From assembly GCA_017439305.1 (NCBI GenBank), contig JAFSJK010000034.1:1-64000 (forward strand): a DNA stretch of 64,000 nucleotides. The letters are read 5' to 3'. Position numbers and translations under genes: made by a program. The stretch comes from Bacteroidales bacterium. GTDB lineage: Bacteria > Bacteroidota > Bacteroidia > Bacteroidales > UBA932. Below, piece after piece: positions 4,468-26,159 of the stretch. Within the stretch, counting starts at the first letter, position 1; each line of letters opens with the position of its first letter. Below the pieces are notes generated by a model. It was not told the origin of the DNA, did not search any database, and saw only the letters and a list, made by a program, of their open reading frames with translations.

Positions 4468-5967
4468 ATGCGAAACCTCTATCTGACCAATACCCTGACG
4501 CGCCGCAAGGAACTGTTCGTCCCCATCCATCCGGGCCATGTGGGCATGTATGTGTGCGGCCCTACCGTCTATGGGGACGCCCATCTGGGTCACGCCCGTC
4601 CGGGGGTGACCTATGACGTCTTGTTCCGTCTTCTCAAACACCTCGGCTACAAGGTCCGCTACGTGCGGAATATCACCGATGTGGGCCATCTGGAGCACGA
4701 TGCCGACGAAGGGGAGGACAAGATAGCGAAGAAGGCGCGCGTGGAGGAGCTGGAGCCCATGGAGGTGGTCCAGACCTACACGGAGCGCTACCACGAGGCC
4801 ATGCGCCTGCTGAACGTGCAGTCTCCGTCCATCGAGCCGCGCGCCTCCGGCCATATCATCGAACAGATCGAGACCGTGAAGAAGATCCTCGAGGCCGGTT
4901 ATGCCTATGAGTCCAACGGATCGGTCTATTTCGACGTGGAGAAATACAACCGCGACTTCGGTTACGGCATCCTGTCCGGCCGTACCCTGGAGGCGACCCT
5001 GGAAGGGACGCGCACCCTGGACGGCCAGTCCGACAAGCGCGCCCCGTACGACTTCGCCATCTGGAAGAAGGCCGAGCCGGAGCACATCATGCGCTGGCCG
5101 TCCCCGTGGGGCGAAGGCTTCCCGGGCTGGCACCTGGAGTGCTCTGTGATGGGGGAGAAGTACCTCGGCAAGGAGTTCGATATCCACGGCGGCGGCATGG
5201 ACCTGATGTTCCCGCACCATGAGTGCGAGATCGCGCAGAACCAGGCCTCCCGCGGCACCCAGGGCGTGCATTACTGGGTCCATAACAACATGATTACCAT
5301 CAACGGGCAGAAGATGGGCAAGTCCCTCGGCAACTTCATCACCCTGCCGGAACTCTTCAGCGGCAACCATCCCAAACTGGACCGCGCCTACAGCCCGATG
5401 ACCATCCGATTCTTCATCCTCCAGGCCCACTACCGCAGCACGCTGGACTTCTCCAACGAGGCCCTGCAGGCCGCAGAAAAGGGCTACAAGCGCCTGATGC
5501 AGGCGGGACGGGAGTTGGGTGCCACGCCGGTGGAAGAGGGATTTCCGGCGGCTAAAAAGAGTGTCGATGCCACCGGAAATCCATCTTCCGCCGTGGTCGC
5601 ACTCATCGAGAACGTCTATGAGGCGCTCTGCGATGACCTGAATACGCCGATTGCCATCGCGCATCTGTTCGAGGCGGTGAAGATGGTGAACGGCGGCAAG
5701 CTTCCCGAGGCCGACAAGGCTGCCCTGCGGAAGCTTTTCGAAGACGTTGTCTACGGCGTCCTTGGCCTCCGCGACGAGGAAGCTGCCGGATCCTCCGGCA
5801 AGGCCGAGAAGGCCCTCGAAGGCGTGATGGACATCGTCCTGGAGGACCGCCGCAAAGCCCGCGCGGAAAAGAACTGGGCCGAATCCGACCGCATCCGCGA
5901 CCTCCTCGCCTCCTTCGGCATCACGGTCAAGGACACCAAGGAGGGCGCTACCTGGACATTGGAATAA
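4468..5967 (+). CDS. cysS: Cysteine--tRNA ligase
   Basis: Class I aminoacyl-tRNA synthetase that charges tRNA-Cys. HIGH-type motif HLGH in [16 protein letters not shown] near residue 40, KMSKS-type motif KMGKSLGN near residue 280, and zinc ligands in CGPTVY, LECSVM and PHHECEIA. The start at 4468 gives [10 protein letters not shown], matching the usual N-terminus. 499 residues, slightly longer than typical Bacteroides CysS (about 490 from memory). The extra length is a short insertion around residues 350-376, after the catalytic core and before the helical C-terminal domain. That insertion coincides with a DNA palindrome (5528-5593), reported separately. xth follows after 4 nt, so the two are probably co-transcribed. 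Confidence 0.97.
5528..5593 (+). repeat. Protein-coding palindromic element, copy 1 (in cysS)
   Basis: Inverted repeat inside the cysS frame. Arms 5528-5552 and 5569-5593 pair at 22 of 25 positions. The 16-nt loop TAAAAAGAGTGTCGAT occupies 5553-5568. The inner stem reads TTCCGGCGGC / GCCACCGGAA. It encodes [12 protein letters not shown]. The same loop (13 of 16 identical), inner-stem pattern and reading frame occur in trmH (14146-14217), while the outer arms differ in sequence. Confidence 0.85.
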
Positions 5968-5971
5968 AGTC

Positions 5972-6715
5972 ATGAAATTCATCTCTTGGAACGTGAACGG
6001 CCTCAGGGCCGTGGCGGGGAAGGGCTTCGCGGACGTTTTCGTGGACCTGGACGCCGACTTTTTCTGCCTGCAGGAGACCAAGCTGCAGGCCGGCCAGATC
6101 GACCTGGAATTTCCGGGGTATCTTTCTTTCTGGGACTATGCCGAAAAGAAGGGCTATGCCGGTACGGCCATTTATACGAAGCATGAACCGCTGTCGGTCC
6201 GGTATGGCATCGGCGTGGACGAGCACGACCATGAGGGAAGGGCCGTTACGCTGGAGTATCCGGATTTCTTCCTGGTGTGTGCCTACGTGCCCAATTCTCA
6301 GGACGGTCTCCGGCGGCTCGACTACCGGATGCGTTGGGAGGATGATATGCGCGCCTACCTGTGCGGCCTTCCGAAGCCGGTCGTCTTCTGCGGCGACCTG
6401 AATGTGGCGCACGAGGAAATCGACATCAAGAATCCTGCCTCCAACCGCCGCAATGCCGGTTTCACCGACGAAGAGCGCGCGAAGTTCGGAGAACTTCTCC
6501 GGGCCGGATTCATCGACACCTGGCGTTTCCAGCATCCGGACGAGGTGAAATATTCCTGGTGGTCCTACCGCTTCAACGCCCGTGCGAACAACGCCGGCTG
6601 GCGCATCGACTACTTTGTCGTCTCTGAAGCTCTCCGCGACCGCATCGTCTCCACCGGCATCCATAACGAAATCTTCGGCTCCGACCACTGCCCCGTGGAG
6701 CTGGTGCTGCGATAG
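5972..6715 (+). CDS. xth: Exodeoxyribonuclease III (AP endonuclease)
   Basis: Cuts DNA 5' of abasic sites and removes 3' blocking groups in base-excision repair. 247 residues, the normal length for the ExoA/Xth family. Visible motifs: N-terminal ISWNVNGLRA, metal-binding Glu in FCLQETKLQ (E35), GDLNVAHEEID carrying the catalytic Asp/Asn, WRIDYF, and the C-terminal SDHCPVEL with the catalytic Asp-His. The ATG lies 4 nt after the cysS stop, so translation is probably from a shared message. Confidence 0.95.
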   Translation: MKFISWNVNGLRAVAGKGFADVFVDLDADFFCLQETKLQAGQIDLEFPGYLSFWDYAEKKGYAGTAIYTKHEPLSVRYGIGVDEHDHEGRAVTLEYPDFFLVCAYVPNSQDGLRRLDYRMRWEDDMRAYLCGLPKPVVFCGDLNVAHEEIDIKNPASNRRNAGFTDEERAKFGELLRAGFIDTWRFQHPDEVKYSWWSYRFNARANNAGWRIDYFVVSEALRDRIVSTGIHNEIFGSDHCPVELVLR

Positions 6716-6752
6716 GGGGGCGGCTATCTCGTTGATATTCAGCGATATATAT

Positions 6753-6825
6753 AATATTCCCTGGGAGGTTTTCCCCGGGGAATATTTCGTAAGTTGCTGT
6801 ATTACAGTTATTTGGCCGAACCTCA
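6753..6825 (+). repeat. RAYT-linked foldback repeat, copy a
   Basis: Hairpin AATATTCCCTGGG (6753-6765) / CCCGGGGAATATT (6774-6786), 13 bp with one T-G wobble and an 8-nt loop. The core is followed by exactly 8 nt, then GTAA (6789-6792), then TTGGCCGAACCTCA (6812-6825). The last three bases of that tail are the reverse complement of the transposase stop codon, so the repeat is fused to the gene's 3' end. Confidence 0.8.
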
Positions 6826-7800
6826 ATCTTCCTTGTTACCGTCCGGCTTCGCTTCCACGGGGGTTTTGCCATTGACCCGACGGAGCGGGATCCGGAGGTA
6901 GTTGGCGATCTGATTTGCCGTGGCCATTGTTTCACGCCGGAGCAGGAAGAATAATTCGCATCTCCTTTCTTCTGAAAAGGCCAGCATGTCATGGATATCG
7001 GTCAGGTGGCAGTGGGCCAGGATGATCTTTGTCATCCGCGCATACCAGCTGTCGTCTTTTCCGACAAACCGCTCTTTCATCTCATACTCGCTGCCTGTCG
7101 TGGAATGGATGGCTATGAGCATCGTTTCGTATGAGCCGAAATGGCTGATGGCCGCTTGATAATCGATGACGGAATAAGTAGTGATGATGATATCCGTCAA
7201 TTGGTTCTGCTCATTCCGATCCAGGGGGTTGAACAAACGCCTTAGCAGGGCGTATGGCATATGCACCCCGTCTTGATGTCGTGCTTTGACCACCCGAATG
7301 GCACGAAGCAAGGCTTTGGACGCACTTTCCTTGTGAAAGGGTTCTGAGAACGGGTGTTTATCGGTTGCGTAGGCCAGATAATTCCAGCGGTACTGTTCGG
7401 CCAGTTGGCAGAGATGGCGTTCCACGGGATTGTTATCGACATAAATGAGGTTGCTGCGTTCCTTCTTGTCCCCTATCTTGGGAACGCTTCCGAACGGGGT
7501 TTTGAAGAACGGCCCATCCCGATGACAGGTTCCGTTGTGTTCCCTGGCAAACAGGGATGTCAGATCACGTTCGAAATTGGATAGGTCGCTCTTTCGGTCC
7601 GCGATGACGCTTCCGTGGATGTGATCCGGCATTTGGCACAACTTCAAGACCCGGATGTTGTATCGCTCCGCGATGGTGCAGAAAATGGTAAAATACACCA
7701 AGTGGTCGCTGACGCTGTAAAAAATGACCTCGCCTTTACGGGAAATCTGGTAAATGTGATTGATGGCGCCTTGGACAAAACGTCGGTTCCCTCCCTTCAT
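6823..7800 (-). CDS. REP-associated tyrosine transposase (Y1/HUH family)
   Basis: 325 residues. An HUH nuclease of the IS200-like Y1 superfamily: metal-binding HUH motif in QMPDHIHGSV and catalytic tyrosine in NLIYVDNNPV, the TnpA_REP pattern. The C-terminal half (about 180-325) is helical and ends in a segment that looks helix-turn-helix-like (ATANQIANYLRIPLRRV), which may bind hairpin DNA. It lies alone between convergent xth and ssb and has lower GC than its neighbours by eye. Foldback repeats sit on both sides (6753-6825 and 7925-7963), and two more lie at 32.6-33.2 kb. Known RAYTs are single-copy domesticated transposases that move REP hairpins; that role here is inference. Confidence 0.88.
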   Translation of the reverse strand: MKGGNRRFVQGAINHIYQISRKGEVIFYSVSDHLVYFTIFCTIAERYNIRVLKLCQMPDHIHGSVIADRKSDLSNFERDLTSLFAREHNGTCHRDGPFFKTPFGSVPKIGDKKERSNLIYVDNNPVERHLCQLAEQYRWNYLAYATDKHPFSEPFHKESASKALLRAIRVVKARHQDGVHMPYALLRRLFNPLDRNEQNQLTDIIITTYSVIDYQAAISHFGSYETMLIAIHSTTGSEYEMKERFVGKDDSWYARMTKIILAHCHLTDIHDMLAFSEERRCELFFLLRRETMATANQIANYLRIPLRRVNGKTPVEAKPDGNKED

Positions 7801-7924
7801 ATCTCTCTGGCGTCAGCCTTTGACCTGCTGACATTGTAAAGATGGGAAACTTTTTGATGTCTTCCAAAAGAGTCTCATCTTTTCTTCGGTTCTCCTAACG
7901 GCCTGTGATAGAGGTGTTTATAGA

Positions 7925-7963
7925 AAACTCCCTGGGGGAAAACACCCAGGGAGTTTCGGGTAA
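7925..7963 (+). repeat. RAYT-linked foldback repeat, copy b
   Basis: Perfect 12-bp stem AAACTCCCTGGG (7925-7936) / CCCAGGGAGTTT (7945-7956) with an 8-nt loop. The CCCAGGG core is followed by 8 nt, then GTAA (7960-7963) and TTGAG 8 nt after the start of GTAA. It lies 125 nt upstream of the transposase start. The TTGGCCGAACCTCA tail is not recognisable at the expected position. The rest of 7801-7996 holds no gene I can support. Confidence 0.75.
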
Positions 7964-7996
7964 ACGATTGAGTGATAGGGCTCTAGGGGGACCAAG

Positions 7997-8029
7997 AAAA
8001 AACCCGTCGATTCATTTTCGACGGGTTTT
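7997..8029 (-). terminator. Intrinsic terminator of ssb
   Basis: Stem AAAACCCGTCGA (7999-8010) / TCGACGGGTTTT (8018-8029), 7-nt loop. Read on the minus strand it ends in a T-run (complement of 7997-8002) just after the ssb stop. Confidence 0.85.
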
Positions 8030-8035
8030 CTTTCC

Positions 8036-8665
8036 TCAGAACGGCAGGTCGTCGTCGGGGGCGCCGGCATCGGACTGGGCGGGGGACTGAAAGGGCTGCT
8101 GTACGGGTGTTTGCGCAGGCTGGGGGGCGAATGGCTGGTGACCGGCCGATTGGGGCGCGAAGCTGCCCTGCGGGGAGCCCTGCTGTCCGGGATAACCGCC
8201 CTGGGTGCCGGCTTGCCCGGAGTAGCCGCCTTGGGAGCCGCCTTGCCCGGAGTAGCCGGCTTGTCCGGAGTAGCCGCCTTGCCCGGAATAACCGCCCTGG
8301 CCCTGCGGGGCGTCGGGGCGCTTGCCCAGGAGCTGGAGGTTGTCCACCTGGATTTCGGTAGTGAAGCGCTTATTGCCAGTCTGGTCGGTCCACTGGCGGG
8401 TGCGGATCTTGCCTTCGATGAAGACCTGACTGCCCTTGTGGACGAATTTTTCGATGAGGTCGGCGTTGCTACGCCAGGCAACGATGTTGTGCCATTCCGT
8501 GTTCTCGCGGGTTTCGCCGTTGCGGTCGCGATAGCGCTCCGTGGTGGCGAGACGGAAGGTGGCTACCTTGGTGTTGCCCTGGGGGCCTTGGGGATTGGAA
8601 TCGAGGTAACGGATTTCGGGGTCATTTCCAACGTTACCGATCAGCATGACTTTGTTGAGTGCCAT
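8036..8665 (-). CDS. ssb: Single-stranded DNA-binding protein
   Basis: Coats single-stranded DNA in replication and repair and recruits partners through its C-terminal tip. 209 residues: an N-terminal OB fold (MALNKVMLIGNVGNDPEIR... to about residue 115), then a flexible Gly/Gln/Tyr/Ser-rich linker with repeated GYSGQ units, a Gln/Pro-rich stretch, and the conserved acidic tip DDDLPF. A -7 promoter box lies at 8688-8695, overlapping the aroE stop, and a terminator follows, so it can be expressed on its own. Confidence 0.97.
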   Translation of the reverse strand: MALNKVMLIGNVGNDPEIRYLDSNPQGPQGNTKVATFRLATTERYRDRNGETRENTEWHNIVAWRSNADLIEKFVHKGSQVFIEGKIRTRQWTDQTGNKRFTTEIQVDNLQLLGKRPDAPQGQGGYSGQGGYSGQAGYSGQGGSQGGYSGQAGTQGGYPGQQGSPQGSFAPQSAGHQPFAPQPAQTPVQQPFQSPAQSDAGAPDDDLPF

Positions 8666-8687
8666 AATGCAATAGGTTTGGTCCTAA

Positions 8688-8695
8688 CAAAGTTA
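8688..8695 (-). promoter_or_regulatory. -7 promoter box of ssb
   Basis: TAACTTTG on the minus strand (CAAAGTTA as printed), 22 nt upstream of the ssb start. It overlaps the TAA stop of aroE (8693-8695). No well-spaced -33 TTG seen. Confidence 0.55.
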
Positions 8696-9454
8696 GCAAA
8701 AAATCCGCAACATCGCATCCCGGTCGGGCGCTTCTGAAGTAAAAATCGAATACCCTGCCACGGCCTGGTACAGCAGCCAGCGGAGACCGGAAACATAAGC
8801 CCGTCCGCGGCCCGCTAGGACCGGCGTCCGGTAATTGGCTTCGAGGATCACGGCGTCCGGGAAATCCGGTAAGCCTTCCATCGGCCCGGGAACGGTATAG
8901 ATGACCAGGTCCGCCCGGGGAACGGCCCCTTGGGAAGGGCTCCAGGACCCGGAATCCGACCCCCCAAGTTCTTCGACCGGCATCCAGCCGCAACCCAGTT
9001 CGGCGGCAAGGGATGAGGCGCGGGAGGGAGTGCGGTTGACGAGCGTCACGCGGCAACCCAACCGGAGGGCGGCCACTGCCGCGGCACGGCCGGCGCCGCC
9101 GCAACCTACGACCAGCGCCTCGGATACCGGTATTCCGGTTTCCTGGACGGACAGTACCACGCCGTCGACATCCGTGTTGTATCCGACAATACCGTCAGGC
9201 GTCTTCACCGCCAGGTTCACGGCCCCGCACAGGCGGGCGCTGTCCGAAAGGACATCGACCGACCGGAAAGCGTCCAGTTTGAAGGGGGCGGTGATGTTGA
9301 TGCCGTCGTACCCGTCCAGGAAGCGCTGCCAGGAGCGTCCGAAGTCGGCCCCTTCAATCAGGTCATAGGGATATCGTCCCCCATAGGCCGCTTCGAACAG
9401 CCGGGGACTCAGGGAGCCGGCGACGGGATTGCCGATGAGGCCGAAACGTCTCAT
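8693..9454 (-). CDS. aroE: Shikimate dehydrogenase
   Basis: Reduces 3-dehydroshikimate to shikimate with NADPH in aromatic amino-acid synthesis. 253 residues. Substrate-site motifs: GNPVAGSLSP near the N-terminus, NITAPFK with the catalytic Lys, YNTDVDG with the catalytic Asp. The Rossmann dinucleotide motif is VVGCGGAGRAAAVAAL, and LLYQAVAGYSIFT is near the C-terminus. A short Ser/Gly/Pro-rich stretch (GGSDSGSWSPSQGAVP, about 163-178) looks like a lineage-specific linker. The start overlaps the stop of the upstream membrane protein by 4 nt (ATGA), indicating coupling. Confidence 0.93.
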   Translation of the reverse strand: MRRFGLIGNPVAGSLSPRLFEAAYGGRYPYDLIEGADFGRSWQRFLDGYDGINITAPFKLDAFRSVDVLSDSARLCGAVNLAVKTPDGIVGYNTDVDGVVLSVQETGIPVSEALVVGCGGAGRAAAVAALRLGCRVTLVNRTPSRASSLAAELGCGWMPVEELGGSDSGSWSPSQGAVPRADLVIYTVPGPMEGLPDFPDAVILEANYRTPVLAGRGRAYVSGLRWLLYQAVAGYSIFTSEAPDRDAMLRIFC

Positions 9455-10500
9455 CGCCGATGGAGTAAGGTTTCATACAGGTAGGATCCGCCCCCGCAGA
9501 AGACGTCCACGATGACCTGGGACTCGTGGGAGAGCGTCGCGAAGATCATCCCCATCCCGAACGGAATGCCGTACAGGCTGGAAAGGGCGCCGGCGACGAC
9601 CATGTGGAAGGCACCGAAGCCGCCGGGGACGGGAACGACCGAACTCAGGGCACCCGCGAACATCAGGAGCAGGGCGTCATCCATGCCGAGCGTGTCGATC
9701 TTGGCGAGGCTGTCGGCGAGTTCAGGACTGAGCCCCGTGGGGTCGATGCCCTGCAGGGACCACAGGATGCTGGCGCTCATGAGCCAGTACAGGACCCAGA
9801 TGAGGGCGGTGTAGAGGACGAAGAGCCAGCCGTGCTCCATGTGCAGGCAGGACGACAATCCGTCGGCCATCCCTTTCAGGTAGCCCCAGATGCGGCCCCA
9901 GATGCGGCCCCGGTCACGGAGACGCCAGCACAGATACAGGAATCCGCCCATCAGCAGGATGGCGATGACTGCGATCCACCACAAATGGGCCTTTCCGGCT
10001 ACGCCCGGGAGGATGGTTTCCGTAAAAAAGGTGCCGAAGCGGTCCCACATGAGTACGAGCGTCAGGACAAAGACGATGAAGAAGGAGGCCAAGTCCCACA
10101 TCCGGTCCGCGATGACGGTGCCCAGGACCTTGTCGATGGGCGCGAGATGGCGTCCTTCCGCATCCCGGCCGGAATTCCGGGTCACGAAGATGGATCGGAC
10201 CACTTCACCCACCCGCGGCAGCACCAGGTTCACGACCATGCAGATATTGTAGGCGTTCCAGCATGTGAGCCGCTTGGTGGCGGGGTCCACGGGCAGGATC
10301 TGCATCCGCCAGCGGAGGCCGCGGATATAGAGTACCAGGGCTCCGAAAGCCATGGACAGGAGTACGTATCCCCAACGGCAATGCTGCAGGGCGGTCGCGA
10401 AATCCGCCCAGTTCACGCTCCGGAACGAGAAGTACAGCAGCGCCGCTGAAACGCTGATCCAAAGGAGGTACTTGCCGGTATTCTTCAATTTCTTGCCCAT
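9451..10500 (-). CDS. Flippase-like / lysylphosphatidylglycerol synthase TM-region integral membrane protein
   Basis: 349 residues with seven to eight hydrophobic segments. Conserved features of the UPF0104/LPG_synthase_TM family are present: RGLRWRMQIL, NICMVVNLVLPRVGEVVRS after the second helix, and VPVPGGFGAFHMV near the C-terminal helices. The family includes lipid flippase domains of MprF; Bacteroidales members stand alone and their substrate is not established. First gene of an operon with aroE (4-nt overlap). A minus-strand -7 box lies 9 nt upstream of the start. GRIWGRIWG near residue 200 is a small in-frame tandem duplication. Confidence 0.85.
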   Translation of the reverse strand: MGKKLKNTGKYLLWISVSAALLYFSFRSVNWADFATALQHCRWGYVLLSMAFGALVLYIRGLRWRMQILPVDPATKRLTCWNAYNICMVVNLVLPRVGEVVRSIFVTRNSGRDAEGRHLAPIDKVLGTVIADRMWDLASFFIVFVLTLVLMWDRFGTFFTETILPGVAGKAHLWWIAVIAILLMGGFLYLCWRLRDRGRIWGRIWGYLKGMADGLSSCLHMEHGWLFVLYTALIWVLYWLMSASILWSLQGIDPTGLSPELADSLAKIDTLGMDDALLLMFAGALSSVVPVPGGFGAFHMVVAGALSSLYGIPFGMGMIFATLSHESQVIVDVFCGGGSYLYETLLHRR

Positions 10501-10508
10501 TGCTGATG

Positions 10509-10516
10509 CAAAGTTA
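10509..10516 (-). promoter_or_regulatory. -7 promoter box for the flippase-aroE operon
   Basis: TAACTTTG on the minus strand, ending 9 nt before the start codon at 10500, so the transcript would be nearly leaderless. It is divergent from the box at 10540-10547. Confidence 0.55.
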
Positions 10517-10539
10517 GTGGAAAATCCCCAAATAATGTA

Positions 10540-10547
10540 TAAATTTG
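10540..10547 (+). promoter_or_regulatory. -7 promoter box for the kinase operon
   Basis: TAAATTTG matches TAnnTTTG. The expected transcription start is about 10553-10555, which makes ATG 10573 a better start for the kinase than the upstream ATG 10555 unless the mRNA is leaderless. Confidence 0.6.
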
Positions 10548-10572
10548 TAGGTTAATGGAAAAATGCGTCCGT

Positions 10573-11568
10573 ATGAAATCCATCCTGGGCATCGGAAACG
10601 CCCTCACCGACATCCTCGCCGTCCTTCCGGACGATTCGCTTCTCAGGAAGTATCATCTTCCGCTGGGCAGCATGCAGCACGTGGATATGGAGACGGGCGA
10701 CCGGATCTGGGATGCCCTGAAAGAATACGGCGTCAAGTATGTCCCGGGCGGTTCCGCCGCCAACACCATCACCTGCACGGCCATCTTCGGAATGCCTTCC
10801 GGTTACATCGGCAAGATCGGCAATGATGACCTGGGCAACCTCTTCAAGAGCACGATGGAGCAGTACGGCGTCCGTGCCCAGATGCTGTACGGGACCAAGT
10901 CCAGCGGCCGGTGCATGGTCTTCATCACCGGGGCCAACGCCGAGCGTACCTTTGCCGACTACATGGGCGCCACCCTGGAACTGGGTCCGGATGACCTCGT
11001 CCCCGAGATGTTCGAGGGCTACGACTATTTCCACATCGAAGGCTACCTCGTGCAGAACCAGGAACTCATCGCCAAGGCCGCCCGGCTGGCAAAGGGAGCA
11101 GGCTGCACCGTCTCCATCGACATGGCCTCCTACAACGTCGTCGAATCCAACGACGCCTTCTTCCACAACCTGGTGGAGAACTACGTGGACATCGTCTTCG
11201 CGAACGAGTCGGAAGCCAAGGCCTTCACCAAGCTGGAGCCGCGCGAGGCGGCGGACGAAATCGCCCGCCACTGCCAGATCGCTGTCGTGAAGGTGGGCAA
11301 GGACGGGTCGATGGTCCGGTCCGGGGACGAATTCCATTTCATCGAGCCCAAGCCGGCGAATCCGGTGGACGCCACCGGCGCCGGAGATACCTACGCCGCC
11401 GGGTTCCTTTATGCCCATTCGCTCGGGATGCCGCTCCGCGTCTGCGGGGAAATCGGCTCCATCATCGCCGCGAAGGTGGTCGAAGTCATCGGCACCAAGA
11501 TCGACATTCCGCGCTGGAAGGACGCCAAACTGGAAATCCGTGAACTCATCGCTGCCAACACACCATAG
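10573..11568 (+). CDS. PfkB-family carbohydrate/nucleoside kinase
   Basis: ATP-dependent kinase of the ribokinase/PfkB superfamily; Bacteroidales orthologues are often labelled adenosine kinase or sugar kinase, and the substrate cannot be decided here. Motifs: N-terminal GIGNALTD, the PfkB signature 1 region VPGGSAANT and IGKIGNDDLG, and the C-terminal DATGAGDTYAAGF carrying the anion hole and catalytic Asp. I start at 10573 (MKSILGIGNAL) because homologues begin just before this motif and the -7 box lies only 8 nt upstream of ATG 10555. Next gene starts 3 nt after the stop. Confidence 0.9.
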   Translation: MKSILGIGNALTDILAVLPDDSLLRKYHLPLGSMQHVDMETGDRIWDALKEYGVKYVPGGSAANTITCTAIFGMPSGYIGKIGNDDLGNLFKSTMEQYGVRAQMLYGTKSSGRCMVFITGANAERTFADYMGATLELGPDDLVPEMFEGYDYFHIEGYLVQNQELIAKAARLAKGAGCTVSIDMASYNVVESNDAFFHNLVENYVDIVFANESEAKAFTKLEPREAADEIARHCQIAVVKVGKDGSMVRSGDEFHFIEPKPANPVDATGAGDTYAAGFLYAHSLGMPLRVCGEIGSIIAAKVVEVIGTKIDIPRWKDAKLEIRELIAANTP

Positions 11569-11571
11569 ACT

Positions 11572-12105
11572 ATGCTGGATTCGGTCAAAGATATGCTCAG
11601 GCGCCACAGCCTGAAAAAGAACGCCTCGCCGGAGCCGACGGGATTCGTCCCGCTGAGCGATATCCGCTCTGCCGTCGCGTTCATCGACGTGGAGGACACC
11701 TCGTTCAACGAGTGCAAGAACTCGTTGCTGCTGTTCTTCCGCGAACATAACATCAAGGGGGACATCTTCTTCTTCGACTTCCGGAAACTTACGGAAGGGG
11801 AGCGTCTCATCACGAGCATTACGACCACCGTCCTCAAGAAGGACCTCAACTGGTATGGCAAACCCTCCAACGAGAAAGTCGCCCTGATGCTGAACGGCGA
11901 GCCCGACCTTTTCATCTCGCTGCTTCCTTTCAACGACTACCCCCTGGAATTCATGGCCAAGTGTTCCCGCGCCCGGTTCAAGATCGGCCGGGTCCAGCTG
12001 CCGGGCGATACCTTCGACCTCGTGATCAAGGACCCCGAGGACCGCAAGCTCAATGAAGCCGAGGTCTGCAAGGAACTGATCAAGTTCATGGGCAAGATCC
12101 GATGA
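11572..12105 (+). CDS. Conserved Bacteroidetes protein (DUF6913-like)
   Basis: 177 residues, soluble, no signal peptide. The order of conserved patches (FNECKNSLLLFFREHNIKGDIFFFDFRKL, LNWYGKPSNEKV, DLFISLLPFNDYPLEFMAKCSRARFKIGR) matches a small family restricted to Bacteroidetes that I associate with DUF6913; no biochemical role is known to me. It sits between the kinase (3 nt away) and the next gene (4-nt ATGA overlap), so it is translationally coupled on both sides. Confidence 0.8.
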   Translation: MLDSVKDMLRRHSLKKNASPEPTGFVPLSDIRSAVAFIDVEDTSFNECKNSLLLFFREHNIKGDIFFFDFRKLTEGERLITSITTTVLKKDLNWYGKPSNEKVALMLNGEPDLFISLLPFNDYPLEFMAKCSRARFKIGRVQLPGDTFDLVIKDPEDRKLNEAEVCKELIKFMGKIR

Positions 12106-12575
12106 TCCAATACCTGATTGTTTTCCTGATCTCGATGGTGCCGCTCATTGAGCTGCGCGTGGCCGTCCCGTACGCCGTCGGCATGGGCCTGCCCCTTGTT
12201 CCCTCCTGTATCATCGCTGTCCTCGGGAACATGCTGCCGGTTCCCTTCATCTTCCTGTTCGCCCGCCGCATCCTGGAGTGGGGAAAGGATAAGAAATATA
12301 TCGGCAAGTTCTTTACCTGGTGCCTGGAAAAAGGCGAGAAGGGGGGACGCAAGTTGGAAGAAAAGGCCGGCCGCGGCCTGTATGTCGCCCTGCTGCTCTT
12401 CGTTGGTATCCCGCTTCCCGGGACGGGCGCCTGGACAGGTACCCTCGCCGCCAGCATCCTGGACATGGATTTCAAAAAAAGCGTCTTATACGTGCTTCTC
12501 GGCGTCCTGCTGGCAGGGGCGATCATGCTCCTGGGTTCCCTGGGCGTTTTCGGAGCCATCAACTTCCTGAAATAA
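12102..12575 (+). CDS. Small multidrug export family membrane protein
   Basis: 157 residues, four hydrophobic segments. The opening MIQYLIVFLISMVPLIELRVAVPYA and the motif VGIPLPGTGAWTGTLAA are characteristic of the PF06695 (Sm_multidrug_ex) family. Transport function in the family is weakly supported; call by family only. Overlaps the preceding gene by 4 nt. Confidence 0.85.
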   Translation: MIQYLIVFLISMVPLIELRVAVPYAVGMGLPLVPSCIIAVLGNMLPVPFIFLFARRILEWGKDKKYIGKFFTWCLEKGEKGGRKLEEKAGRGLYVALLLFVGIPLPGTGAWTGTLAASILDMDFKKSVLYVLLGVLLAGAIMLLGSLGVFGAINFLK

Positions 12576-12588
12576 ACCACACGAAACT

Positions 12589-13563
12589 ATGACACTGAAA
12601 CGATTCATCCTCTGGAGCGCATCGCTCCTTCTCGCCGCGAACTGCCTGACGGGCTGCCTTGCCGGCAAATTCATGACGAACTATGCCCTCAAGCCTGCGC
12701 AGCACGGTGAGGCCGATATCGAACGCACCCGCGCCAAGGCCGATTCCCTGGCTCCCGGCGTGATGGCCTGGTACGACGACCTGCACCAGAAAGGCATCTT
12801 CAAGGACATTACCCGTACCGATCCTGACGGTTATAAACTGCACGCCGTATACGCTCCGGCCAAGGATCCGGCCAATGCCCAGGGTACCGCCATCATCGTC
12901 CATGGATATACCGACAACCATCTCGTCTTCATGTACCTCGTGCGCATGTACCGTGACGAGTTCAACTACAACGTGATGGTCCCGGATCTCCAGTACTTCG
13001 GCTATTCCGAGGGCGTGGCCGCCCAGATGGGCTGGCTGGACCGCCTGGATGTGGAAGACTGGGCTGTGGTCGCCCACGACATCTTCAAGGATGATTTCAC
13101 CGTCGTGCACGGCGTGTCCATGGGCGCCGCCACCGCGATGATGATGAGCGGCGACGACCTTCCGTCCTATATCCGCGCTTTTGTCGAGGACTGCGGCTAC
13201 TCTTCCGCCTGGGACCAGTTCGCCCACAATCTGAAAGACAGCTTCCATCTGCCCCCGTTCCCGATCCTGAACAGCGCCAGCATCGTGTCCAAGCGCCGCT
13301 ACGGCTGGGGCTTCAAGGAGGCATCCTCCGTGAATCAGCTTGCCAAGTGCGACCGCCCGATGCTCTTCATCCATGGCGATGCCGACGACTTTGTCCCGGT
13401 GGATCATGTGTACAAGAACTACGCGGCCAAGACCCACGGCTACAAGGAGCTTTACGTCGTTCCCGGCGCCGTCCACGCGAATTCCTATGCGAAGGATCCC
13501 GCGAACTATACCTGGCGCGTGAAGTACTTCCTCCAGCGCGTGAAAAACGGAACGGTCAAGTAA
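12589..13563 (+). CDS. Alpha/beta hydrolase, lipoprotein-like N-terminus
   Basis: 324 residues. N-terminal hydrophobic segment with a lipobox-like LTGC at 20-23, then a serine hydrolase fold. Visible: oxyanion-region HGYTDNH, nucleophile elbow GVSMGA, acid FIHGDADDFVPV and histidine VHANS. Similar proteins in Firmicutes and Bacteroidetes are annotated as DUF/esterase-like hydrolases; the substrate is unknown. It is the last gene of the kinase operon (13 nt after the previous stop) and ends 1 nt before the convergent trmH stop, with no terminator between them. Confidence 0.88.
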   Translation: MTLKRFILWSASLLLAANCLTGCLAGKFMTNYALKPAQHGEADIERTRAKADSLAPGVMAWYDDLHQKGIFKDITRTDPDGYKLHAVYAPAKDPANAQGTAIIVHGYTDNHLVFMYLVRMYRDEFNYNVMVPDLQYFGYSEGVAAQMGWLDRLDVEDWAVVAHDIFKDDFTVVHGVSMGAATAMMMSGDDLPSYIRAFVEDCGYSSAWDQFAHNLKDSFHLPPFPILNSASIVSKRRYGWGFKEASSVNQLAKCDRPMLFIHGDADDFVPVDHVYKNYAAKTHGYKELYVVPGAVHANSYAKDPANYTWRVKYFLQRVKNGTVK

Positions 13564-13564
13564 T

Positions 13565-14407
13565 TTACGCGTGCCGCTGGCGGACGGCTTCGAAGAGGAG
13601 GATGGCGGTGGAGACGGAGACGTTGAGGCTGTCCAGCCGGCCGAGCATGGGGATGCGGATGTGCGCATCCGCGGCATCCCGCCAGATCTGAGTGAGACCG
13701 GTGGATTCGGTACCCATCACGAGGGCCGTTCCGCCGGTCATATCCGTATCATAGTACCAGGAAGAATCCTGCAGCTGGGCCGTGAGGATCCGGATGCCCC
13801 GGGCGCGGAGCCAGGCGATGGCTTCCTCCGAGGTGGTGCATACGGTGGGAACCGTGAAAATGCCGCCGAGGCTCGCGCGGATGAGATTCGGGTTCCACAG
13901 GTCCGTGAGCGGGTCGCAGACGACGACCGCATCGGCCCGCGCTGCGTCCGCGCTGCGGAGGACGGCGCCGAGGTTTCCCGGCTTTTCCACGGACTCCAAC
14001 ACGACGACGAGCGGATGCTCGGACAGTTCCAAGTCTTCCAGGCCGATGTCCCGGCGCTCCACCTCGGCGATGATCCCTTCCGTACTTTCCCGATACGCAA
14101 CCTTCCGGTACAGCGCTTCAGGAATCTCGATCAAGAGCGGAATGTCCCCGGAGGGGGTGAACCTTCCGGGCGCATCGACCTTTTTTTTAGCGCCCGGAAG
14201 GTTTACCCCCTCCGGGGTCGGCCCTGCGAGCTCCGGACAGACGAAGAGGGTCCGGACCCGGAAGCCGGCTTCCAGGCAGTGCTCCAGTTCGCGCCGTCCT
14301 TCCACCACGAAAAGACCCTGCTCCCGCCGCGCCTTGGATTTCTCCTGCAGCAGGAGCAGATTCTTGATTTTCGGATTCTGCGCCGATGTGATGGTTTCTA
14401 TCCTCAA
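13565..14407 (-). CDS. TrmH/SpoU-family RNA 2'-O-methyltransferase
   Basis: SAM-dependent SPOUT-class enzyme that methylates ribose of tRNA or rRNA; exact target unknown. N-terminal substrate-binding domain ([32 protein letters not shown]) followed by the knotted catalytic domain: motif 1 [18 protein letters not shown], motif 2 [10 protein letters not shown], motif 3 [17 protein letters not shown]. Residues about 63-88, in the linker between the two domains, are an insertion ([18 protein letters not shown]...) encoded by a 72-bp DNA palindrome. The start overlaps the lysS stop by 4 nt. Confidence 0.92.
14146..14217 (-). repeat. Protein-coding palindromic element, copy 2 (in trmH)
   Basis: Two 28-nt arms (14146-14173 and 14190-14217) are complementary at every position but one. 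That one is a G-T wobble when the gene strand is read as RNA. The 16-nt loop on the gene strand is TAAAAAAAAGGTCGAT. Inner stem TTCCGGGCGC / GCGCCCGGAA. It encodes [12 protein letters not shown] in the frame of trmH, parallel to [12 protein letters not shown] from the element in cysS. Confidence 0.9.
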
Positions 14408-26098: not shown

Positions 26099-26159
26099 TA
26101 GATAAAAGGACAGGGTCCGGACGACTTTTTTCGGAGTCCGGACCCTGTCCTTTTATCTA
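26099..26159. terminator. Bidirectional terminator, unusually long stem
   Basis: Perfect 24-bp stem (26099-26122 with 26136-26159) and 13-nt loop with T6. The outer part of each arm is TAGATAAAAGG / CCTTTTATCTA, supplying T-rich ends on both strands. It lies between the convergent kinase and arabinose operons. Confidence 0.8.

Follow-up and report, generated by a model that had tools for sequence, protein, structure and literature searches.

In-frame palindromes with a shared loop and site-specific arms in genes of Bacteroidales

Introduction

Selfish palindromes that lie in frame within protein-coding genes were previously described from Rickettsia, Wolbachia and one archaeon, according to the accessible part of one account (PMC2996958). 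The Rickettsia palindromic elements (RPEs) and their counterparts in Wolbachia and M. jannaschii are depicted there and in a second, partly accessible report as palindromes placed in frame in unrelated housekeeping genes, where they encode unstructured segments with a recognizable peptide (PMC10969869, PMC2996958); the length given for an RPE is ~150 bp (PMC10969869). Here we describe a family of coding hairpins represented by two palindromes, one in the cysteinyl-tRNA synthetase gene cysS and one in a trmH-like methyltransferase gene, in a 64,000-nucleotide stretch of a Bacteroidales genome (assembly GCA_017439305.1, contig JAFSJK010000034.1, positions 1 to 64,000 of the forward strand) that is referred to as the window. 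A literature search, which missed most subscription journals, turned up no account of elements of this kind from Bacteroidales.

Perfect inverted repeats also occur within functional genes of nematomorph mitochondria, where the arms are kept identical and template switching has been proposed as the cause (PMC6649704, accessible part). Template switching at inverted repeats is described, in the open portions of two further reports, as homogenizing the arms and inverting the spacer, both in coding DNA (PMC8604942) and in RNA genes (PMC8794818). The repetitive extragenic palindromes (REPs), as characterized in the available text of PMC3733652, carry GTAG/CGTC tags and are located mainly downstream of genes.

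Results

The two palindromes of the window

Each copy of the hairpin family is layered: its apical loop cassette is nearly constant within a genome, a short common junction follows, and the long complementary arms are specific to the site. The two copies in the window and their host genes are as follows.

4468–5967, forward strand: cysS (cysteinyl-tRNA synthetase), the open reading frame (ORF) that hosts copy 1, with Pfam matches PF01406, DALR_2 and CysS_C.
5528–5593, forward strand: hairpin copy 1 in cysS, arms 5528–5552 and 5569–5593, matched by covariance model R1 at 5529–5592 (70.9 bits).
5551–5570, forward strand: type A core of copy 1, GCTAAAAAGAGTGTCGATGC, made up of the loop and the inner GC/GC pairs and read as AKKSVDA.
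13565–14407, reverse strand: trmH-like SpoU methyltransferase, the ORF that hosts copy 2, with Pfam matches PF00588 and PF22435.
14146–14217, reverse strand: hairpin copy 2 in trmH, arms 14146–14173 and 14190–14217, matched by covariance model R1 at 14150–14213 (71.3 bits).
14172–14191, reverse strand: type A core of copy 2, GCTAAAAAAAAGGTCGATGC, read as AKKKVDA.

Both palindromes were found exactly where the original prediction had placed them, with the pairing and loop likeness that it reported. In the cysS hairpin 22 of 25 arm positions pair around the loop TAAAAAGAGTGTCGAT, and weaker pairing extends to 5516–5605 (37-nt arms, 81%); in the trmH hairpin 27 of 28 positions pair around the gene-strand loop TAAAAAAAAGGTCGAT. 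The two 16-nt loops are identical at 13 of 16 bases, and translation of the ORFs confirmed that the hairpins are read in one common frame. The window contains two instances of the shared core flanked by CCGG, whereas 100 shuffled versions contain none, and no hairpin with a 16-nt loop and 22/25 or 27/28 pairing arose in 30 first-order Markov resamples. The encoded peptides had been assigned to linkers outside the catalytic motifs, and both do lie outside the catalytic domain. The CysS peptide is positioned between the catalytic (17–337) and DALR (383–434) Pfam matches. The TrmH peptide (~residues 64–88) precedes the SpoU catalytic domain (133–272), but it falls in a variable stretch within the match to an MRM3-like substrate-binding domain (11–114) and is thus not an inter-domain segment. 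The Pfam run covered the two window hosts and a neighboring Y1_Tnp gene.

Distribution of the core

The family becomes visible once the arm sequence is unconstrained. With the CCGG arms fixed, the pattern matched none of 119 other genomes, because arm sequences and some core positions are variable, whereas a search with the core alone, allowing at most one mismatch, succeeded in 38 of 400 genomes of the genus. Type A core copies number 36 in genome G194, 26 in G264, 18 in G402, 17 in G179, 16 in G123, 15 in G361 and 7 in G436, and a reversed-core control yielded no more than two matches per genome in all genus genomes. The further copies that had been expected are therefore present in relatives, at up to 36 per genome, but in the window genome itself just two, those in cysS and trmH, were found by core-pattern and covariance-model searches. 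A third place in that genome (C80:13390), with three core mismatches, was not returned by the covariance model, with which 150 of 1674 candidates were scored.

Fourteen of 30 opened core-search loci carry no arms, and these matches are taken as chance; the remaining loci, less one duplicate of a window copy, formed the sample for arm identity. Among records with the exact core, those with paired arms are metagenome-assembled genomes (MAGs) of Bacteroidia/Bacteroidales, several of them ruminant by title. The 25 scorable stretches from such MAGs pair at 9–18 of 18 arm positions, as compared with 2–10 of 18 in the 18 records from other organisms (2 of the 45 records lay at a sequence edge). Since the copies compared for core and arm identity had been found through the core itself, a core-blind hairpin scan was also run over 373 kb of four genomes; it returned 21 hairpins with a loop of at least 14 nt, of which 16 contain the type A core and one contains the type B core described below. 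The full compilation, in which a copy was kept if it had at least 11 of 18 arm pairs, or 9 together with at most one core mismatch, comprises 173 type A copies. Counts of up to 70 per genome from a scan limited to 150 scored candidates per genome were set aside, as such a scan can register one hairpin twice, once on each strand. The hairpin family is genuine and goes beyond chance.

Arm covariation

The CysS and TrmH stretches of relatives (30 loci each) contain many different in-frame hairpins, including one in the orthologue alignment (L042) in which the core recurs with quite different arms. Within one genome the 20-nt core is 0.84–0.97 identical between copies, and the arms are 0.41–0.65 identical. 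In the host frame the junction reads arm-TCCGC-loop-GCT(A/C)C-arm', with variants, and is common to types A and B. Covariation was measured in 76 gapless aligned copies, taken from the 80 among 93 copies that had at least 11 of 18 arm pairs. In this set 86.6% of the arm cells are paired, as compared with 61.2% after shuffling and 46–53% after sliding, and 496 two-sided arm changes are present against 147 in the shuffled set, distributed such that all 20 arm pairs carry them. Pairing exceeds background out to ~29 bases from the core, the arm edge columns favor CGG/CCG at 20–22 bases from the core, and the element measures ~60–100 nt. As the loop is shared while the arms differ from site to site and yet match each other, fold-back copying of DNA is suggested.

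Covariation this strong could also arise if the hairpins were mRNA structures that regulate their host genes, with the arms covarying under RNA-level selection. We consider that explanation very improbable, as the hosts are unrelated, copies are present or absent between relatives, the core occurs in both orientations, and G-U pairs account for only 33 of ~1,448 paired arm cells (~2%). Moreover, no Rfam family matched above its gathering score in five loci, in which the only matches were microRNA hairpins below that score.

A second loop type

A different loop, designated type B, was first met in three CysS orthologues. Its pattern occurs in 63 of 300 genus genomes, with up to 22 matches per genome (G402, G361 and G436 lay outside this search), and of 30 loci that were opened, 10 pair at 10 or more of 14 arm positions. 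Counting every pattern match as an element was rejected, as many single matches have the sequence GCCCGTACAGCGCCGC and pair poorly; the match in the window genome (L341), with 4 of 14 arm pairs, is one of these. The genomes richest in type B have 0–4 type A matches, and G123, G194, G264 and G179 have 0–1 type B matches. The 40 fetched copies carry GGAGCATTTGCCCGTACAGGGTCGCGAAGCGACGCGGA, or a sequence close to it, as their type B core, and 18 of them have stems of 14–26 bp without a mismatch. The 38-nt core is identical in 11 of the 12 copies of G019, while every arm is different, and with core identity of this kind drift can hardly explain the differences between the arms. Judged by sequence, types A and B are one architecture with an exchangeable loop. 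Two further variants were noticed: a third hairpin type with a common GGACGGTGCC loop region and covarying arms in TrmH of G037 and G054 (L007 and L012), and a type B hairpin in IleS of G364 and G019 (L408 and L414) with ~39 extra loop bases that form a nested hairpin.

Comparisons at orthologous sites

The variable presence of the insert among orthologues that the original prediction called for is seen in CysS, TrmH, MiaA and IleS, each of which has orthologues with and without it. At MiaA, where 23 of 30 loci were readable, relatives read, for example, AKALRAEILSADSRQ (G028), and the G264 protein is 25 residues longer. Both arms lie inside this insert, so the hairpin can arrive whole. A complete hairpin within one insert is what the classical Rickettsia-type alternative predicts, in which the entire hairpin including its arms is the mobile unit and the variety of arms reflects many coexisting old master lines; a family resemblance among arms within a genome, such as GGAGGGNACNCCCCTTCGGTC in G123 and G402, points in the same direction. 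This alternative is nevertheless unlikely, as perfect arms that differ from one another surround one and the same 38-nt core, and drift after insertion would also have hit the core and left mismatches. In addition, the accessible text on Rickettsia palindromes describes them as losing repeat identity over time (PMC6649704).

At IleS, where 28 of 30 loci were readable, the G226 allele equals that of G335 plus exactly 57 nt, comprising the 38-nt core and 19 nt of 3' arm. The 19-nt arm is an inverted copy of the 5' arm that is already present upstream in G335, and it ends at a GTCA shared with the target; G230 agrees with G335 here except at two positions, and the protein identities are 99 and 98%. 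A gain in G226, which requires fewer events, is favored only because G226 and G335 are the closest pair. At a second locus (site 2), the short allele of G230 lacks the core and 13 nt, ending at TCT. In PolA, the outer end of the G226 right arm equals flank sequence in G335, of which the left arm may or may not be a copy. Across genomes, arms at the same site are 0.57 identical as compared with 0.45 for other copies, and cores at the same site are 0.832 identical as compared with 0.857 for cores within one genome; copies at one site thus share arms while their cores are genome-typed. These features would be accounted for if the loop cassette with its junction were the sole mobile unit and one flank were copied backwards at insertion to give the other arm. 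The MiaA relatives that lack the long insert, among those readable, have no stretch there from which the arms could derive, where a site is filled by type A in one genome and by type B in another, the arms are not clearly shared, and the IleS difference can be read as a deletion. The MiaA insert and the type A versus type B arms weaken strictly target-derived arms as the sole model, and we regard insertion of the loop cassette with a backwards-copied flank as doubtful. As regards a miniature inverted-repeat transposable element (MITE), no clear target duplication was seen at MiaA or IleS, and the arms are not a conserved terminal inverted repeat.

Eight orthologous loci are filled in two or three of the genomes G226, G335, G230 and G171, with 86–95% flank identity, which gives 16 comparisons. 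The core is unchanged (0 of 38 bases) in all 16, a count that has to be read with the copy-finding pattern in mind, as this prescribes 20 bases of the 38-nt core and leaves only the outer 18 free of bias. At two of the eight loci the arms have been rewritten on both sides around an unchanged core, with 7 double changes and 1 single change in PolA and 8 double and 3 single changes at s445. Same-site pairs whose arms are at least 75% alike show 15 double and 15 single changes, where 3.8 double changes are expected if the arms change independently. The core has flipped in place at two of the eight loci, with arms kept and 91–93% flank identity. Across 21 same-site pairs with opposite core orientation, which are non-independent, arm identity is 0.549 as compared with 0.429 (0 of 5000 resamples). 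The window trmH copy is itself an example, as its orthologue L074 (G341) has homologous arms with compensated changes and a core that is inverted relative to the gene.

In-place flips of the loop are also the signature of an inverton, in which a site-specific recombinase would invert the loop between the inverted arms. We find this scarcely credible here: the arms have no common sequence that a recombinase could recognize, and site-specific inversion usually involves spacers much longer than the 16–38 nt present here.

Hosts and reading frames

The palindromes are dispersed over unrelated genes and are present or absent between relatives. Hosts include CysS, TrmH, IleS, MiaA, AtpG, Fmt, PolA, MurE, LigA and TatD, the names beyond CysS and TrmH having been read from the sequence. 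When the longest ORF across the core is taken as the host, 109 of 173 type A copies have it on the core strand, where 106 share a single frame, and the other 64 have it on the opposite strand, 35 and 27 of them in two frames; on the latter counts, the reversed core tolerates more than one reading. For type B, 38 of 44 copies are in one phase.

Several loci (L139, L118, L240, L258 and L151) have tandem or nested copies within one gene, e.g. AKKIADATADTSATAKKIADATADTS, which suggests insertion beside existing copies or their duplication. Copies at or near the starts or ends of ORFs (L105, L134 and L137) have nearly perfect arms of 22–27 bp, and may possibly act as terminators or be sources. The same protein stretches also carry other coding inserts that look REP-like by eye (CHSERSEES, VISSEVEKS, IPGQAGNDG and CHPEARPELVEG), at L404, L412, L422, L426, L427 and L430 in IleS, at L008, L015 and L030 in TrmH, and at L035 and L046 in CysS. 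These host protein stretches may be general hot spots of insertion.

Candidate mobilizers and neighboring features

One gene between the two hosts encodes a potential mobilizer.

6823–7800, reverse strand: Y1_Tnp (IS200/RAYT-like) gene between cysS and trmH, Pfam match PF01797.

If the hairpins were REPs or bacterial interspersed mosaic elements (BIMEs) mobilized by a REP-associated tyrosine transposase (RAYT), such a gene should accompany them, and Y1_Tnp is indeed present in all seven type A multi-copy genomes (2–4 matches each) as well as near cysS in the window. However, 21 of 26 genomes have it, G003 and G064 among them, in which no copies were found, the type A model (the only one applied) has matches in none of 20 fetched Y1_Tnp loci of ~3 kb each, and the element has a CGG...CCG edge with no GTAG/CGTC tag. 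Mobilization by a RAYT is accordingly improbable. Because Y1_Tnp occurs regardless of copy number and the 20 fetched loci are free of the type A element, the Y1_Tnp gene of the window is probably a mere neighbor. In G382 (C23), a Y1_Tnp gene lies ~2 kb from the cysS copy. A reverse transcriptase as driver (diversity-generating retroelement, retron or group II intron) was rejected, with RVT_1 present in 9 of 26 genomes and in one of the seven type A multi-copy genomes, which are MAGs of 64–90% completeness.

Outside both host genes, the window contains a perfect 24-bp hairpin at 26099–26159. It was rejected as a member of the family since its loop, GACTTTTTTCGGA, differs, and it is probably a terminator or another repeat.

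Discussion

With somewhat more confidence than doubt, we favor the view that these hairpins are a non-autonomous, selfish, protein-coding palindromic element, of the same general kind as those of Rickettsia, with arms that fold-back copying generates or maintains. Spread of the loop cassette within genomes is indicated by the number of copies and by loops typical of each genome, which, together with presence and absence between relatives, lead us to infer that the element is mobile. In this mechanism, machinery acting on the loop cassette would spread it within a genome, and copies would persist in tolerant regions of a protein as long as they leave the reading frame open. Template switching by DNA polymerase at the hairpin, whereby one arm is fold-back copied into the other, would create, mend and rewrite the arms, and the same process would flip the loop. 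Both signs of template switching are found, namely arm homogenization (496 versus 147 two-sided changes) and spacer inversion (two of eight loci).

Several observations weigh against this view. No mobilizer was linked to the element among the reverse transcriptase and RAYT genes examined, and no transposition event was seen. The short alleles at IleS and site 2 can equally be deletions between TTCT/TCT microhomologies, and the constancy of the core at orthologous loci is subject to the pattern bias given above. Arm upkeep is uneven: four of the eight loci (s446, s398, s443 and s444a) show few arm changes, mainly single and uncorrected, and the window cysS arms differ from those of G382 by no double and two single changes. 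Some type B copies have a short, poor or almost absent stem (e.g. L382, L383 and L388), and type A and type B arms at one site are 0.485 identical against a background of 0.45 (311 of 5000).

A tentative refinement, to which we give limited credence, is that this is a new class of mobile DNA, which owns only the 30–40 nt loop cassette. The stem would then be built by inverted target duplication, giving each copy a palindrome of its own, and fold-back copying would later rewrite the arms, flip the loop and let a new loop type take over, with both orientations remaining in frame such that the element is tolerated in essential enzymes. The evidence for it is direct but readable both ways at one or two loci, and there is one counter-example.

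The hairpins, in the favored view selfish elements with fold-back-copied arms, are abundant in a large, MAG-rich genus of Bacteroidales, inside what their sequences identify as core enzymes. A near-constant loop combined with site-unique arms and in-place flips is a layout that we did not find described in the accessible portions of the literature on in-frame selfish palindromes. How such palindromes originate and stay perfect is an old question that has now become testable by comparison of sister species, and the palindromes would continually supply essential proteins with new peptides.

The resemblance to the Rickettsia elements, which had been suggested for the two window copies, holds in that the Bacteroidales hairpins are in-frame palindromes dispersed over unrelated genes and present or absent between relatives, a likeness at the level of published descriptions. 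It does not extend to a conserved whole unit, as conservation was tested over the whole unit and only the core and junction are conserved, the arms being unique to each site. The Bacteroidales unit is also shorter (~60–100 nt as opposed to ~150 bp), its loop flips in place, and its named hosts are Bacteroidales MAGs, several of them ruminant, as opposed to intracellular parasites. The hairpins resemble REP/RAYT palindromes in being small and dispersed, but differ in having neither the GTAG/CGTC tag nor a linkage to RAYT genes. They share the upkeep of the arms with the coding palindromes of nematomorphs, for which the accessible text describes no shared loop or dispersed family and whose arms encode conserved protein regions (PMC6649704). 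Finally, arm homogenization and spacer inversion are both present, as in mutations attributed to template switching. The published cases, as far as their available text extends, involve ordinary repeats, with inverted spacers changing 2–5 bp in the yeast study, whereas in Bacteroidales these changes affect a dispersed family of hairpins with loops of 16–38 nt.

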